Source: Candidatus Acetothermia bacterium
GTDB lineage: Bacteria; Bipolaricaulota; Bipolaricaulia; UBA7950
DNA length: 40,067 nucleotides
Reading direction: 5' to 3'
NCBI GenBank assembly: GCA_022684035.1
Contig: JAJHSB010000056.1
Location: forward strand, 1-40,067
The position numbers were made by a program, and so were the translations under genes. The notes under the pieces are model-generated. The model was not told where the DNA came from, ran no database searches, and worked only from the letters and a program-made list of their open reading frames with translations. The stretch's first letter is position 1; the number at the start of each line of letters is the position of its first letter. Shown here in pieces: positions 18,459 through 38,027 of this stretch.

Positions 18459-19589
18459 ATGAACTGCCTGATTGATATATTTCCATTTACTAAATTCGAT
18501 TTTGGTCCTACCCATCCCTTCAAAATCCATCGCTTAGAGTTAACATATAAACTGATTGCGGCTTATAATCTGATCGATCTTCCACAAGCCTATCAGACAG
18601 ATCCACAGGTAGCCACTGAAGAAGAGATGCTCTCATTTCACAGCAAAGAATATTTAGAAACGCTATGCATAGCTGATAAAGGAATATGGCATCCTAAAAT
18701 GATAATGCATGGTTTTGGAACTGGAGACAACCCGCTATTCCCTGGTGTCTACGGATGGGCGTCGCTCGTTGCCGGCGCATCGATCACTGCCGCTACTCAA
18801 CTGATCAACGGAAAAGCAAATACAGTGTTTAATTTCGCTGGTGGCCTGCACCATGCTATGCCGACACGAGCAGCCGGATTCTGCCATATAAATGACGTTG
18901 TATTAGCAATCAAAAAGTTATTAGAACACTATGATCGAGTCGCTTATATCGATATCGACGCCCACCATGGAGACGGTGTTCAACATGCGTTTTATTCTAC
19001 TGATCGTGTTATGACAATTTCGATCCATCAAAGTGGCAATTACATATTTCCCGGCACAGGTTTTCCGCATGAAACCGGCAATGGAGCTGGTCAAGGATTT
19101 GCGGTGAACATACCCCTCCTGCCTGGAGCCGGTGACAGTGCGTTCCAGTTAGCAATGAAAGAAGTTATCCTTCCGCTGATCAATGCGTATGATCCGCCAG
19201 TTATCGTCACGCAGCTTGGCGCTGACGCATTAACAGGAGATACGATAGCCTCTTTGGCGATGAGTTTGCATGGGTTTGAACAAATAGTGCAGACTTTCAA
19301 AGATCTTAGGCGACCTTGGCTGGCACTCGGCGGCGGTGGATATAATATCGGAAATGTCGTGCGGGCATGGACGCTCACCTGGGCAGTGATGAATGATGTT
19401 GTAGTTGATGATGAGATTCCTGCAAACTGGCGAGCGATGGCCGCTCGCTGGGGAGTCGACGTTACGAACTTACGGAAAGGAGATCATGAAAGATTTAGCT
19501 ATACAGCTCCCGACCGTGTTTTAGCGGATTTAGAGCAAGTAATCGCTTTTCTACGACACCATCTCTTTCCCCTGCACAATCTTAGGTAG
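18459..19589 (+). CDS. acuC: AcuC/histone-deacetylase-family zinc deacetylase
   Basis: A 376-residue arginase/deacetylase-fold enzyme of the class I HDAC/AcuC type, full length. Catalytic landmarks: GGLHHAMP with the His pair at 131-132, YIDIDAHHGDG (163-173) supplying the zinc Asp (167) and His (169), the second zinc Asp in QLGADAL (Asp256), and GGGGYNIGN (291-299) with the transition-state Tyr. In Bacillus, AcuC deacetylates and so activates acetyl-CoA synthetase; related bacterial enzymes act on acetylated polyamines, but the HDAC-like GGGGY and overall length favour AcuC. No acs or acuA lies nearby. It is a single gene facing away from the tRNA operon; AAGAAGG is a reasonable ribosome site. 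Confidence 0.9.
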   Translation: MNCLIDIFPFTKFDFGPTHPFKIHRLELTYKLIAAYNLIDLPQAYQTDPQVATEEEMLSFHSKEYLETLCIADKGIWHPKMIMHGFGTGDNPLFPGVYGWASLVAGASITAATQLINGKANTVFNFAGGLHHAMPTRAAGFCHINDVVLAIKKLLEHYDRVAYIDIDAHHGDGVQHAFYSTDRVMTISIHQSGNYIFPGTGFPHETGNGAGQGFAVNIPLLPGAGDSAFQLAMKEVILPLINAYDPPVIVTQLGADALTGDTIASLAMSLHGFEQIVQTFKDLRRPWLALGGGGYNIGNVVRAWTLTWAVMNDVVVDDEIPANWRAMAARWGVDVTNLRKGDHERFSYTAPDRVLADLEQVIAFLRHHLFPLHNLR

Positions 19590-33385: not shown

Positions 33386-33892
33386 ATGTCTTTTAATGGG
33401 CTCATAATTTGGGTCTTGCTTCTCGCTATCTGGTTTATTCTCACCCGCACAAGTGCGCCGTGGATGGTGCTTTCCGGGGTATTGTGCACAGCAGCGATAA
33501 CTATCTTGCAACAACGCCTCTTTCCACCGACGCCATCGCTGCGTTGGCGAATCCTACTTCAGCCGATCAAATGGATTCACTACTTCGTTATTCTGCTGAT
33601 ACGATTTATCTATTCCACCCTGTACACGACAAAATTGATCATCACCGGGAGAGTCGAAGGAGCGGTCATCACCTTGCCCATCACGCTCACTGATAAATTA
33701 GGTCTCTTTCTACTATTCAGCGCAATAACAATAACGCCGTCGACGATCGCCATCGCAGTTGATGATGACTTGCTCTATGTCCACTGGATCAGAGAAACAG
33801 GAAGTAAGGGAGACTGGCAGCAGATCAAAGAGTCTATCGAAGATAGATTGGTATCTATCTTTATCGAGAGAGAAGGTGTGCGAGATCGATGA
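33386..33892 (+). CDS. mnhE: Mrp-type antiporter subunit E
   Basis: A 168-residue membrane protein of the MnhE/MrpE family, with membrane segments about 5-20, 25-42, 59-80 and 102-125. The family pattern LTPSTIAI appears as TITPSTIAIAVDDDLLYVHWI (about 116-136). MnhE is a small subunit of multi-subunit Na+/H+ antiporters. A GGAG box lies eight bases before the ATG. It is the first gene of a tightly packed operon and overlaps mnhF by 4 nt. Confidence 0.92.
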   Translation: MSFNGLIIWVLLLAIWFILTRTSAPWMVLSGVLCTAAITILQQRLFPPTPSLRWRILLQPIKWIHYFVILLIRFIYSTLYTTKLIITGRVEGAVITLPITLTDKLGLFLLFSAITITPSTIAIAVDDDLLYVHWIRETGSKGDWQQIKESIEDRLVSIFIEREGVRDR

Positions 33893-34146
33893 TTGCTCAT
33901 TTGATCGGCATAGGTATTATTGGCTCGTTACTGATCGTGCTGTATCGGTTTATCGCCGGTCCTACTGTGTGGGATCGCCTGCTCGGCTTCCATGCAGTTA
34001 GCAGTAGAGTTATTCTCCTCCTTGTTCTTTTCAGTGTCTTTGGGAAGAGTGACTTATCTCTCGATGTGGCGTTTATTTATACTGCCGTCAGTTTTTTGGG
34101 AATTGTGGTGGTCGCTAAATTCGCCGAACGCGGAGGAGCAGAGTAG
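33889..34146 (+). CDS. mnhF: Mrp-type antiporter subunit F
   Basis: An 85-residue, three-helix protein of the MrpF/MnhF family, shown by YRFIAGPTVWDRLLGFHAVS (19-38) and the final DVAFIYTAVSFLGIVVVAKF. It is a small membrane subunit of the antiporter. The start overlaps the mnhE stop by 4 nt, and its stop directly abuts the mnhG start. Confidence 0.92.
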   Translation: MIAHLIGIGIIGSLLIVLYRFIAGPTVWDRLLGFHAVSSRVILLLVLFSVFGKSDLSLDVAFIYTAVSFLGIVVVAKFAERGGAE

Positions 34147-34437
34147 ATGGTTGAATATCTCCTTTACGGGGCGGGGATTTTCTTTATCGTTGTCGGTTCG
34201 ATTGGTCTGGTTCGGTTTGAAGATCTATATTTTCGCCTCCATGCCGGCGGGGTGGCTGATAATGCCGGGTTTTCCCTGATATTGCTCGGCCTGATCATTC
34301 GTAGTGGATTCACTCTCCCCGCGCTTATGATCGCACTCCTTCTGCTGTTAAACTTAGTTACCAATCCGATCGTTACGCATTGTATTGCCAAGAGTGCATT
34401 TACGATGCGCTATCGCCCCCGAAAGAAGGAAAAATGA
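34147..34437 (+). CDS. mnhG: Mrp-type antiporter subunit G
   Basis: A 96-residue, three-helix protein of the MnhG/PhaG family, with GSIGLVRFEDLYFRLHAGGV (17-36) near the start, the typical 'R-F-D-x-Y-x-R-L-H-A' block, and RSGFTLPALMIALLLLLNLV. It is an integral membrane subunit required for antiport. It starts with no gap after mnhF, and its stop overlaps the next start by 4 nt. Confidence 0.92.
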   Translation: MVEYLLYGAGIFFIVVGSIGLVRFEDLYFRLHAGGVADNAGFSLILLGLIIRSGFTLPALMIALLLLLNLVTNPIVTHCIAKSAFTMRYRPRKKEK

Positions 34438-35267
34438 CTACCTTACAAGGGTTACTATTATTATTACCTGTTATTGCTATCTTTGCGCTTACGCGTCGCC
34501 GCCCGCTGGGAGCGATTTTGGGGATGGGAGTTTTTAGCATACTGTTGGCAGGAGTCTATCTGCTATCTCATGCGCCTGATGTAGCACTGGTGGAAGTGGC
34601 GGTTGGAACAGCGTTTCTTACTTTTTACATCCTCGCTGTTCGCAAAAAAGGGAAACTGATGGTTGTCGGCGATGAAACCCCTTATCTTCTCTATCGGCAA
34701 GGAGAAGATATTGTTGGATTGGAGCATGAGATTCTCCGCGGATTTGCCGGCGAACTTGGACTTGATTTAGAGATTCTTTTTATCCCTCGGCAACAGGTTC
34801 CTAAATGGCTGGTAAGTGAGGATGCCGACATCGGAGCAGGCGGAATAGTTCCCACCACAAGAGAAAAGAGCAATTTACTGATCAGTGATGGCTATTTGAA
34901 GACACGGCTGTTCCATATTTCCCGTCGCTCAACCAATAAGCGTGTAGCAGGGATTACCGGCAGTCGCGCCCTGAAAGAGATAGAAAAAAAGAACGGCATT
35001 GCAGATCATCACGAATATTTTTCCGACTTATGTGCCGGCATCGACGAGGGAAAAATAACGAAATGCAGCGTTGATTTAGTGAGATTTATCGCTCTCAAGC
35101 GTCAGGTGTTGACAAACTACAATATCGAACGTGACCCCGAAGATCTCAGTTATGTCTTTGCTGTATCACCCGGCGAGAAAGAGATTTACGAAGGATTAAA
35201 CACCTATATTGCGCGCTTACGCAGTAGCGGTGAGTTGGAGAGTATCATAGAGAGGTACTTAAAATGA
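34434..35267 (+). CDS. MbhD-like antiporter domain fused to an SBP_bac_3-like domain
   Basis: A 277-residue fusion. Residues 1-72 are a DUF4040/MbhD-type segment of the antiporter: three hydrophobic helices with RRRPLGAILGMGVFSILLAG and the signature HAPDVALVEVAVG (46-58), equivalent to a piece of MrpA in classical systems. Residues about 74-277 look like a family-3 solute-binding domain as in MltF or amino-acid-binding proteins: ETPYLLY, VGLEHEILRGFAGELGLDLE (94-113), then ADIGAGGIVPTTREKSN (131-147) and a C-terminal SGELESIIERYL. With an odd number of helices the binding domain should face the periplasm. It could sense or bind a small ligand and gate the antiporter; that is inference. ATG 34434 overlaps the mnhG stop by 4 nt. 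Confidence 0.85.
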   Translation: MTTLQGLLLLLPVIAIFALTRRRPLGAILGMGVFSILLAGVYLLSHAPDVALVEVAVGTAFLTFYILAVRKKGKLMVVGDETPYLLYRQGEDIVGLEHEILRGFAGELGLDLEILFIPRQQVPKWLVSEDADIGAGGIVPTTREKSNLLISDGYLKTRLFHISRRSTNKRVAGITGSRALKEIEKKNGIADHHEYFSDLCAGIDEGKITKCSVDLVRFIALKRQVLTNYNIERDPEDLSYVFAVSPGEKEIYEGLNTYIARLRSSGELESIIERYLK

Positions 35268-35992
35268 TCGCAGGGAAAAGACTGACTGCGCAAAAGACGA
35301 TTGCGGTTATTGTTGCTCTCGTCTTCCTTCTCGTTGTGCTTTTTTCATTCTCATTCATCGGCAAGAGACCAGGAGCAGGAGAAGAATTCATCAGGCAAGG
35401 AGTAGAAGATACTGGAGCAGTAAATATTGTTGCTGCTATCTACTTGAATTATCGCCTCTTTGACACGATCTTTGAGATTCTCGTCTTTGCCCTGGCAGTG
35501 ATCGGAGTTCGCTTCCACCTCCACGCAGTCAAAGGTAAACGGCCGGCGCTCAAAGAGACTCCGTTTCTCTCTGAATCAAACGTAGTCCGTGTGGCCGGCG
35601 ATCTATTAGCGCCTGTTGTGGCGCTGATCAGTCTCTTTTTGATCGTTACAGGGCATCTTACTCCTGGAGGGGGGTTCAGCGGCGGTGCTCTGCTGGGAAC
35701 AGGGATTCTGCTATTAGCGGTGGCAAGAGGGGGAGAACAGGTAGGACGTAGTCTAAACGACAATGTAGTAGACCGCCTGGAGCAGATCTTCTTTGTGGGC
35801 ATCATCGCTCTGAGTCTATTGCCACCGCTCTTTGGCCGACCACTCTTAGCTAATTTCCTGCCACTAGGAGAGCCGGGCCACCTGCTGAGCAGCGGGTGGA
35901 TTCCTCTCTACAATCTACTCATCGGAGGGAAAGTATTTATCGGAATATGGGCAATGATATACTGTTTTATTCGTCACCGTGGTGATGTGTGA
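35264..35992 (+). CDS. mnhB: Fused MbhE-like plus MnhB antiporter subunit
   Basis: A 242-residue membrane protein combining two antiporter modules. The first (about 1-88) has a membrane anchor, then VNIVAAIYLNYRLFDTIFEI (53-72), a segment equivalent to MbhE or the C-terminus of MrpA. The second (about 108-240) is MnhB, with LLAPVVALISLFLIVTGHLT followed by PGGGFSGGALLG. Four or five helices follow. It overlaps the preceding fusion gene by 4 nt, so translation is coupled. Confidence 0.9.
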   Translation: MIAGKRLTAQKTIAVIVALVFLLVVLFSFSFIGKRPGAGEEFIRQGVEDTGAVNIVAAIYLNYRLFDTIFEILVFALAVIGVRFHLHAVKGKRPALKETPFLSESNVVRVAGDLLAPVVALISLFLIVTGHLTPGGGFSGGALLGTGILLLAVARGGEQVGRSLNDNVVDRLEQIFFVGIIALSLLPPLFGRPLLANFLPLGEPGHLLSSGWIPLYNLLIGGKVFIGIWAMIYCFIRHRGDV

Positions 35993-36111: not shown

Positions 36112-36489
36112 ATGGAATGGATAAATGGAGTGACGATCGGTGTGGTTCTGTTCGTCATCGGCCTGCTTACCCTGATGTTACGGCGCGATTTGATCGTGAA
36201 ATTGCTCGGTCTTGGTCTGCTCAATACCAGTGTCATCCTTGTCCTCATCTCTCTCGGCTACTATACCCGTGGCGTTGCGCCGATTATTACTGGTAAACCA
36301 GAACAAATTTACATCGATCCGCTTCCGCAGGCATTGGTTCTCTCAGCTATCGTCATCAATCTCGCTATTCTGGCGCTGTCGCTCGTCTTCGTGATGATCC
36401 TTATGGAGCGATATCACACTACTGACTCAGTTAAGATCGCACAGCAAATAGAGTACGAAAGGAGCCAAGAACAGGCGCATATCCGATGA
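36112..36489 (+). CDS. mnhC: Mrp-type antiporter subunit C (NuoK-like)
   Basis: A 125-residue, three-helix protein of the MnhC/NuoK family, with LLGLGLLNTSVILVLISLGY (31-50) and the conserved DPLPQALVLSAIVINLAILA (68-87), typical of MnhC. NuoK-like subunits form part of the proton channel next to the large antiporter subunits. The start has a Shine-Dalgarno sequence at a long distance. It overlaps mnhD by 4 nt. Confidence 0.93.
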   Translation: MEWINGVTIGVVLFVIGLLTLMLRRDLIVKLLGLGLLNTSVILVLISLGYYTRGVAPIITGKPEQIYIDPLPQALVLSAIVINLAILALSLVFVMILMERYHTTDSVKIAQQIEYERSQEQAHIR

Positions 36490-38027
36490 ATCAATTACTA
36501 CTTCCCGTGCTCTTCTTTACTACCGGCTCGCTCGTCCTTCTCTGGCCACGCTACGCTCGGTTAATTACCCTGGTTGCTGTTCTGCTTAGTGGAGCGTTAG
36601 TCGCGGTTCTCACAACGCACTTTTTTGTCTACGGGCCCATCTCGTATACGATCGGAGGGTGGCCGGATGAGATAGGGATTGAACTTTATTTCGACACGAT
36701 CGGACTCTATTTCAGTGCACTGACCGTAGTGCTGGGGCTGGCAGTAAGTCTTTATTTGTGGAGTCGTCATATGCAGAGTCATTTTTACCTGCTGCTTAAT
36801 TTTTTCTTTGGATCGATCTATACACTTATCTTTGCCTATGATCTCTTTAATATCTTTGTGGCAATGGAGTTTCTTACCCTGCTTGCTTTCCTTCTTATCG
36901 GTTACCCGCGGCGGCCATATCAAATCTGGACCAGCCTCAAATACCTGATCTTATCAGCTATTGGTATGGGGCTGTATCTGTTGGGGGTGGCTGTTCTGTA
37001 TTACCATACCGGCGCACTCAATTTGGGGATAATCGCTGAACTCATCGCTGGTGAATATGAAATGTGGGTGATCGTAAGCAGTGCGCTAATGGTAACTGGA
37101 ATGGCAGTCCGAGCCGGCATCTTCTTATTCAGTATGTGGCTGCCTGATGCGTATTCGTTTTCATCTCCTGTTGTCGCCGCTCTGTTAGCCGGTCTGAGCA
37201 CGAAGATGGCCGGGATCATCCTTATCCGGTTGGCTGCCGCCTTTCCGATCGACTTTAGTCTGTTGATTCTCGGATGTATAACGGGCGTTCTGGGCGGATT
37301 ATATGCAATCTTCTCTCACGATTTACGACGCATCATATCTTTTTCCGCCTTCGCCCAGATCGGCTATTTATTGATCGGACTGGGAGGAAGCAGAGAAGCA
37401 GGAATTACCGGCGGCATGCTCCATCTTGTCGCTCACGGCCTCATTACCTCACTTCTCTTTCTCGCCGGTGGAACAGCAATAGCCGCAGTAGGAGGAGGTT
37501 CAGTGTCGCTGCTCAATGCCAAACGAGCAGTGATTTCACCGCTAGCGCGACTATCGTTGCTGATCGGATTATTGGCACTCAGCGGTTTTCCTTGGTTGCC
37601 TCCATTTGTCGGACGAGTTCTCCTCTCCGGCAGTATCGAAGCAGGGTGGCTGCAAGCGGTTGTCAGTCTCATTTCCTTGACCGGAGTCATTGCGATTGTC
37701 CGATTATTGCCGGTGGGTTATATCAGTGATCGCAACTCCTCGCTCTTTTCCTGCGACTTGAGTCTTGAGTCTCTATCGTTTGTTCTTCTGTTACTGCCGA
37801 TCATCTTTTTTGTGCCGCTCGTGAGAATGACCGGAATAGAAATCGATTTAGGAATCAATCTGATCAAACCGAGCATGATATTGATCAGCGGGATCCTGTT
37901 GTGGCACCTGGTACTCAAAGAGAGAATCACAGGTACACTTCCCAAAGGCATATTGCAGCTTGAATGGGCGATTATCACGCTGGTCGCTGGCTTTTCCATC
38001 ATTTATCTAATGATCGCGCTGTTATAG
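36486..38027 (+). CDS. mnhD: Mrp-type antiporter subunit D (NuoM/N-like)
   Basis: A 513-residue polytopic protein of the proton-conducting antiporter family shared with complex I subunits NuoL/M/N. It has about 14 membrane segments. Key features: YDLFNIFVAMEFLTLLAFLL with the conserved membrane Glu, AGIFLFSMWLPDAYSFSSPV (the Lys usual in many homologues is not evident here), LLAGLSTKMAGIILIRL with the channel Lys, and the loop HLVAHGLITSLLFLAGG. It would carry the ion-translocating channel. No MrpA partner is found. Last gene of the operon. Confidence 0.93.
   Translation: MNQLLLPVLFFTTGSLVLLWPRYARLITLVAVLLSGALVAVLTTHFFVYGPISYTIGGWPDEIGIELYFDTIGLYFSALTVVLGLAVSLYLWSRHMQSHFYLLLNFFFGSIYTLIFAYDLFNIFVAMEFLTLLAFLLIGYPRRPYQIWTSLKYLILSAIGMGLYLLGVAVLYYHTGALNLGIIAELIAGEYEMWVIVSSALMVTGMAVRAGIFLFSMWLPDAYSFSSPVVAALLAGLSTKMAGIILIRLAAAFPIDFSLLILGCITGVLGGLYAIFSHDLRRIISFSAFAQIGYLLIGLGGSREAGITGGMLHLVAHGLITSLLFLAGGTAIAAVGGGSVSLLNAKRAVISPLARLSLLIGLLALSGFPWLPPFVGRVLLSGSIEAGWLQAVVSLISLTGVIAIVRLLPVGYISDRNSSLFSCDLSLESLSFVLLLLPIIFFVPLVRMTGIEIDLGINLIKPSMILISGILLWHLVLKERITGTLPKGILQLEWAIITLVAGFSIIYLMIALL

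Follow-up and report, generated by a model that had tools for sequence, protein, structure and literature searches.

A family-3 solute-binding-protein fold fused to the MbhD subunit of a putative Group 3 Mrp complex in Bipolaricaulota

Introduction

The window (the whole stretch of 40,067 nucleotides that was analysed) contains an Mrp-type antiporter operon in which one small membrane subunit is joined to the domain of a solute-binding protein (SBP). What could such a domain do on a cation/proton antiporter? The first-pass annotation had proposed a periplasmic domain that links ion flux to an extracellular small molecule or tethers a peptidoglycan fragment as in MltF. Mrp-type complexes correspond, in ancestor-like form, to the half of complex I and MBH that pumps ions. 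The Mrp of P. furiosus has no energy-input module (PMC8415708), and the fusion bears on the question of what drives or controls Group 3 Mrp complexes that stand alone.

Results

The gene under study encodes a single protein with two parts:

34434..35267, + strand: MbhD-SBP fusion protein, 277 aa (Pfam MbhD and SBP_bac_3; AlphaFold2 (AF2) model; Foldseek)
34434..34652, + strand: MbhD/MrpA-C part with transmembrane (TM) helices 2-20, 24-44 and 48-72 and E54 (AF2, PDB alignments, papers)
34653..35264, + strand: SBP_bac_3-fold domain, residues 74-277, predicted cytosolic, directly after TM3 (AF2, Foldseek, K/R distribution)

The open reading frame (34434-35267, +) encodes all 277 residues without an internal stop. 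The Pfam model MbhD matched residues 9-71 (E 2.6e-13, 50.3 bits, curated cut-off 27.2) and SBP_bac_3 matched residues 79-276 (E 3.2e-11, 43.5 bits, curated cut-off 26.4). Both models were also matched by 20/20 members of the first family alignment. The start of the gene overlaps the MrpG stop in an ATGA (34434-34437), and its stop overlaps the MbhE-MnhB start in a second ATGA (35264-35267). The in-frame fusion and the translational overlaps described in the first-pass annotation were thus confirmed. A frameshift, a chimera or a chance open reading frame was ruled out because the same architecture is kept in 54 of the 100 Bipolaricaulota genomes.

The neighbouring genes were identified as follows:

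33386..33892, + strand: MrpE (MbhA) subunit (Pfam MNHE, E 5.9e-20)
33889..34146, + strand: MrpF (MbhB) subunit (Pfam MrpF_PhaF, E 6.1e-10)
34147..34437, + strand: MrpG (MbhC) subunit (Pfam PhaG_MnhG_YufB, E 7.4e-22)
35264..35992, + strand: MbhE-MnhB (MrpB/MbhF) fused subunit (Pfam MnhB, E 1.5e-20; MbhE just under its cut-off, E 2.4e-5)
36112..36489, + strand: MrpC (MbhG) subunit (Pfam Oxidored_q2, E 1.6e-16; NCBIfam MrpC models)
36486..38027, + strand: MrpD (MbhH) subunit, the sole Proton_antipo_M protein of the genome (Pfam, E 6.3e-39; whole-genome search)

The operon is tightly packed in the order MrpE, MrpF, MrpG, fusion, MbhE-MnhB, MrpC and MrpD, and the next gene downstream in the window encodes a nucleotidyltransferase (Pfam). 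The Pfam assignments of the neighbours agree with the Mrp/Mbh-type setting noted earlier. However, the operon can be called complete only with regard to this subunit set. The MrpA N-terminal antiporter subunit is absent from it (Pfam; whole-genome search), MrpD being the only Proton_antipo_M protein that the genome encodes. A search of the whole genome (1.56 Mb, 92.6% complete) gave a single match each for Proton_antipo_M, MbhD and SBP_bac_3, all three within the Mrp operon. No hidden hydrogenase or second antiporter subunit was detected in the genome, PF00361 and PF13244 giving single matches each. Hydrogenase-like arm genes, which would mark an MBH/MBS respiratory complex, were not found in the window's operon. 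Because MrpA-N is absent and no Proton_antipo_M protein besides MrpD was found in the genome, the operon is, judged from its genes, a Group 3 Mrp, which comprises MrpB-G-type subunits plus MrpD and no MrpA-N (definition in PMC8415708). Its putative activity is the Na+(K+)/H+ exchange expected of this class. As a separate observation, a free family-3 solute-binding protein was not found genome-wide, the one SBP_bac_3 match lying in the fusion itself.

The operon was compared with P. furiosus Mrp and with the ion-translocating half of MBH/MBS. The subunits and their order are the same (MrpE, F, G, MbhD, MbhE, MnhB, C, D). MrpA-N is missing in all of them, MbhE is fused to MbhF as in MbsE, and the Na+-site Glu is kept. 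On the other hand, the MbhD of this operon is about 200 residues longer than its counterparts, and the extra part has the SBP fold. MbhD of MBH and MbsD of MBS have 94-96 aa and a short cytosolic tail.

The fusion was found in 54 of 100 genomes of Bipolaricaulota (OP1/Acetothermia), partial matches at contig ends included, and is spread over four families (f1, f2, f4 and f6). Most of the sequences compared are derived from metagenome-assembled genomes (MAGs), and the named relatives with the fusion are MAGs of Candidatus Bipolaricaulota/Acetothermia. Full-length fusions under other record names were few (L030, L033, L035, L060 and L061) in a pattern-based contig scan, which demands near-exact motifs so that distant fusions elsewhere may escape it. 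The records L035, L060 and L061 are titled Thermotoga, Caldisericota and Neomarinimicrobiota. Since their fusion sequences fall within the Bipolaricaulota family, these labels are probably wrong, and all five records are probably mislabelled or unlabelled MAGs. Plasmid homologues of the fusion were ruled out, the matches being only free ABC-transporter SBPs with about 22% identity. Cyanobacterial-type PRK07377 proteins were set aside as possible relatives, their NCBIfam similarity being confined to the MbhD part.

At the fused loci, the neighbours of the fused gene are the remaining Mrp subunits. No hydrogenase-arm genes were seen beside the fused copies in the flanks covered, 0-3.6 kb past MrpD. 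Two genomes, G036 (L104) and G028 (L106), have a second, unfused MbhD clustered with 30-kDa and 49-kDa/NiFe subunits, which corresponds to an Mbh-type operon. This agrees with the Mbh reported in Bipolaricaulota (PMC9469722). Because the unfused MbhD paralogues occupy the Mbh hydrogenase clusters, the SBP domain in G036 and G028 sits on the arm-less Mrp copy and not on the Mbh copy. The number of antiporter-like genes varies among the relatives. The sister genome (L022:3279-6279) has a tandem pair of MrpD genes where the window holds one; the second gene of the pair shares about 62% identity with MrpD of the window. Two antiporter-like genes each were also seen in L035, L037 and L041-L043.

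The AF2 model of the fusion (20 sequences) had a mean pLDDT of 78.3 and a pTM of 0.67, with modest confidence in the TM part (57-72) and at residues 169-192 (below 50). It shows three TM helices, 2-20, 24-44 and 48-72, followed from residue 74 by a two-lobed alpha/beta domain. The best Foldseek matches in the PDB were GlnBP, ArgBP and MltF (E about 1e-14 to 1e-12; TMt about 0.7 for GlnBP and ArgBP). The matches also included AncCDT-1, a cyclohexadienyl dehydratase precursor. A profile search against PDB sequences concurred with a binding-protein fold. The f2-type relative L023 was modelled as well (38 sequences, pLDDT 84.6); its fold agrees, and its lobe II is smaller. The Pfam match above cut-off and the modelled two-lobed fold together place the C-terminal part in the SBP_bac_3 fold, as had been suggested. 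The likeness to MltF holds at the level of fold and superfamily. The MltF N-terminal regulatory domain shares the SBP_bac_3 fold and belongs to a membrane-associated protein (NCBIfam and Foldseek similarity). However, MltF resides in the periplasm and contains a lytic transglycosylase domain, whereas the fusion lacks this domain and its SBP part is predicted to be cytosolic. The protein ends at residue 277 with no Pfam match to the lytic transglycosylase domain of the MltF C-terminal part, and the NCBIfam MltF model scored 43 bits against a cut-off of 354.

The side of the membrane on which the domain lies was predicted from several lines of evidence. Among 38 homologues, K and R residues together averaged 2.76 per protein between TM1 and TM2 and 3.05 immediately past TM3, whereas the loop between TM2 and TM3 had none. 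A Kyte-Doolittle scan of residues 74-277 of the window protein reached a 19-residue maximum of 1.16, and no segment was hydrophobic enough for a fourth TM helix. The product of the following MbhE gene has a short K/R-rich N-terminus ahead of its first TM. The MBS structure shows the homologous subunit, MbsD, with its C-terminal tail against the peripheral arm on the cytoplasmic side (PMC7684303). A cytosolic SBP domain is predicted because the K/R pattern, the three TM helices, the lack of a fourth TM and the location of the MbsD tail agree. By the K/R distribution, the three TM helices and the MbsD tail, it would not have the extracytoplasmic location of SBP_bac_3 binding proteins.

The MbhD part has the features by which MbhD/MrpA-C was judged, namely three TM helices, an APDVA motif and the Na+-site Glu. 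E54 aligns with E69 of MBH and E58 of MbsD (PDB alignments). The equivalent MrpA E706 is essential and lies in the cation path; P721 stands at the end of the E706 helix, and its mutation changes the Km for Na+ (PMC7419157). Among the 38 fused proteins, the position is Glu in 30 and Gln in 8. The Gln variants (L035, L036, L037, L041, L042, L043, L046 and L052) come from Bipolaricaulaceae-type MAGs. In the Mrp complexes studied, the Glu is essential.

For the ligand site, the domain was compared with the E. coli GlnBP sequence and site residues (Arg75, Thr70, Asp10 and D157). Arg75 and Thr70 hold the alpha-carboxylate and D157 binds the amino group. At the aligned columns, Arg75 and Thr70 had equivalents in 0/38 homologues. 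The window protein has R143 one column off the R75 position, and the sister species has Ser there. Asp10 was matched in 16/38. D214 was aligned with D157 by eye, with a one-residue manual shift, and this Asp is kept in 34/38. The invariant residues G95, L96, A135 and G136 are a structural signature of lobe I, where the conserved motifs GLE...EIL and GEADI.AGG are found. Since the carboxylate Arg/Thr are unmatched and the strictly kept residues are this structural signature, the domain does not appear to bind amino acids in the classical way. Its ligand, if it has one, may be of another kind. In sum of its likeness to GlnBP and ArgBP, it shares with these family-3 SBPs the two-lobed fold, the Pfam SBP_bac_3 match and the lobe I signature. 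It differs in being fused behind three TM helices, in its predicted cytosolic location, in the unconserved carboxylate Arg/Thr and in a lobe II that is often shortened.

Mean pairwise identity is 62% for MbhD and drops to 44% for lobe I. Lobe II, at 30%, is the least conserved part and is shortened in several clades. Between the window and the sister species, dN/dS was 0.24 for the SBP part (dN 0.116, dS 0.490) and 0.05 for the MbhD part (dN 0.029, dS 0.554). Across six other pairs, the SBP part gave 0.16-0.40. These sequence ratios indicate that the SBP part is under purifying selection.

Discussion

Mrp complexes and the SBP fold are both familiar, and their combination is a new variant. No published description of it was found in the literature searched, which took in few subscription papers. 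We read the fusion as an MbhD subunit, equivalent to the MrpA C-terminal part, in a Group 3 Mrp that stands alone; its SBP-fold part, predicted to be cytosolic, would be an allosteric or assembly module. This reading has about an even chance of being right. The domain would be rigidly attached to TM3, since its first strand begins two residues beyond that helix. It would also stand near the cytosolic cation entrance because TM3 bears the Na+-site Glu, E54. The two lobes could open, close or dock and thereby shift TM3, so that cation affinity or activity is tuned. A possible trigger would be a cytosolic ligand other than a plain alpha-amino acid. The module might stabilise or tune the cation entrance either through lobe movements that depend on a ligand or through contacts with adjacent subunits. 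The effect would resemble that of cytosolic RCK domains on K+ transporters. RCK and CBS domains of K+ and cation/proton transporters are analogous in that they are cytosolic ligand-binding-type domains on an ion transporter; their fold is unrelated. A bolder form is a metabolite-gated Mrp antiporter, in which the cytosolic SBP fold would be wired to the Glu-bearing helix and Na+/H+ exchange would be switched, throughout the phylum, by a cytosolic small molecule other than a plain alpha-amino acid. We regard this form as speculative and rather unlikely.

The strongest competing explanation is that ligand binding was lost and that the cytosolic domain is purely structural, bracing the small subunits or dimerising the antiporter like the MbsD tail. 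Ligand-driven lobe closure may indeed be lost because the ligand residues are unconserved and lobe II is variable and shortened, and the domain is perhaps only structural. In accordance with this, the C-terminal extension of MbsD is a dimer contact in MBS (PMC7684303). However, the full two-lobed fold is retained despite large sequence divergence, the Asp aligned by eye with GlnBP D157 is kept in most homologues, and a brace would not need a hinge. A purely structural brace is quite conceivable, though we lean against it.

The periplasmic model, with ion flux coupled through the domain to a solute outside the cell or to a fragment of peptidoglycan, draws on the presence of MltF among the Foldseek and NCBIfam matches. 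Characterised SBP_bac_3 domains are also mostly extracytoplasmic. Against it stand the charge pattern, the odd number of TM helices without a fourth, the cytosolic MbsD tail and the unconserved ligand residues. The topology predicted here is the cytoplasmic one, which opposes a periplasmic sensor and is an outcome that the first-pass annotation had itself named as refuting its idea; for a peptidoglycan tether, the lytic transglycosylase domain is lacking as well. Both proposals of the first-pass annotation were rejected on topology and domain content, and we consider them very improbable. Hardly more credible is a tethered cytosolic enzyme or substrate-delivery module with a cyclohexadienyl-dehydratase-like SBP fold at the membrane: the SBP fold has been recruited for catalysis elsewhere and AncCDT-1 is among the matches, but no conserved set of catalytic residues was seen, and variability is greatest in lobe II, which would supply one side of a cleft. 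A neutral fusion with the SBP part as a functionless passenger would suit its weaker constraint relative to MbhD, but is most unlikely given its retention in 54 genomes of four families and a dN/dS of 0.16-0.40 in all pairs tested.

A predicted cytosolic domain on MbhD that is kept phylum-wide offers a concrete place to seek Mrp regulation; in MBS, it is the tail of this subunit that extends to the cytosolic arm. If true, a family-3 binding-protein fold would here act intracellularly on an ion transporter, which is uncommon.

C-terminal extension of MbhD is also seen in L062-L066 (Clostridia/Thermotogaceae MAGs), presumably on the same cytosolic side. Their MbhD open reading frames span 181-190 codons from stop to stop and end in a conserved tail of about 110 aa of a different kind, without a Pfam match. 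From a likeness of motifs, this tail was suspected to be a half-SBP; the suspicion was dropped at an hhalign probability of 0.1 against the SBP domain. Elsewhere in the window, the open reading frame at 18459-19589 (+) resembles, as judged by eye, a histone-deacetylase/acetoin-utilisation family protein.
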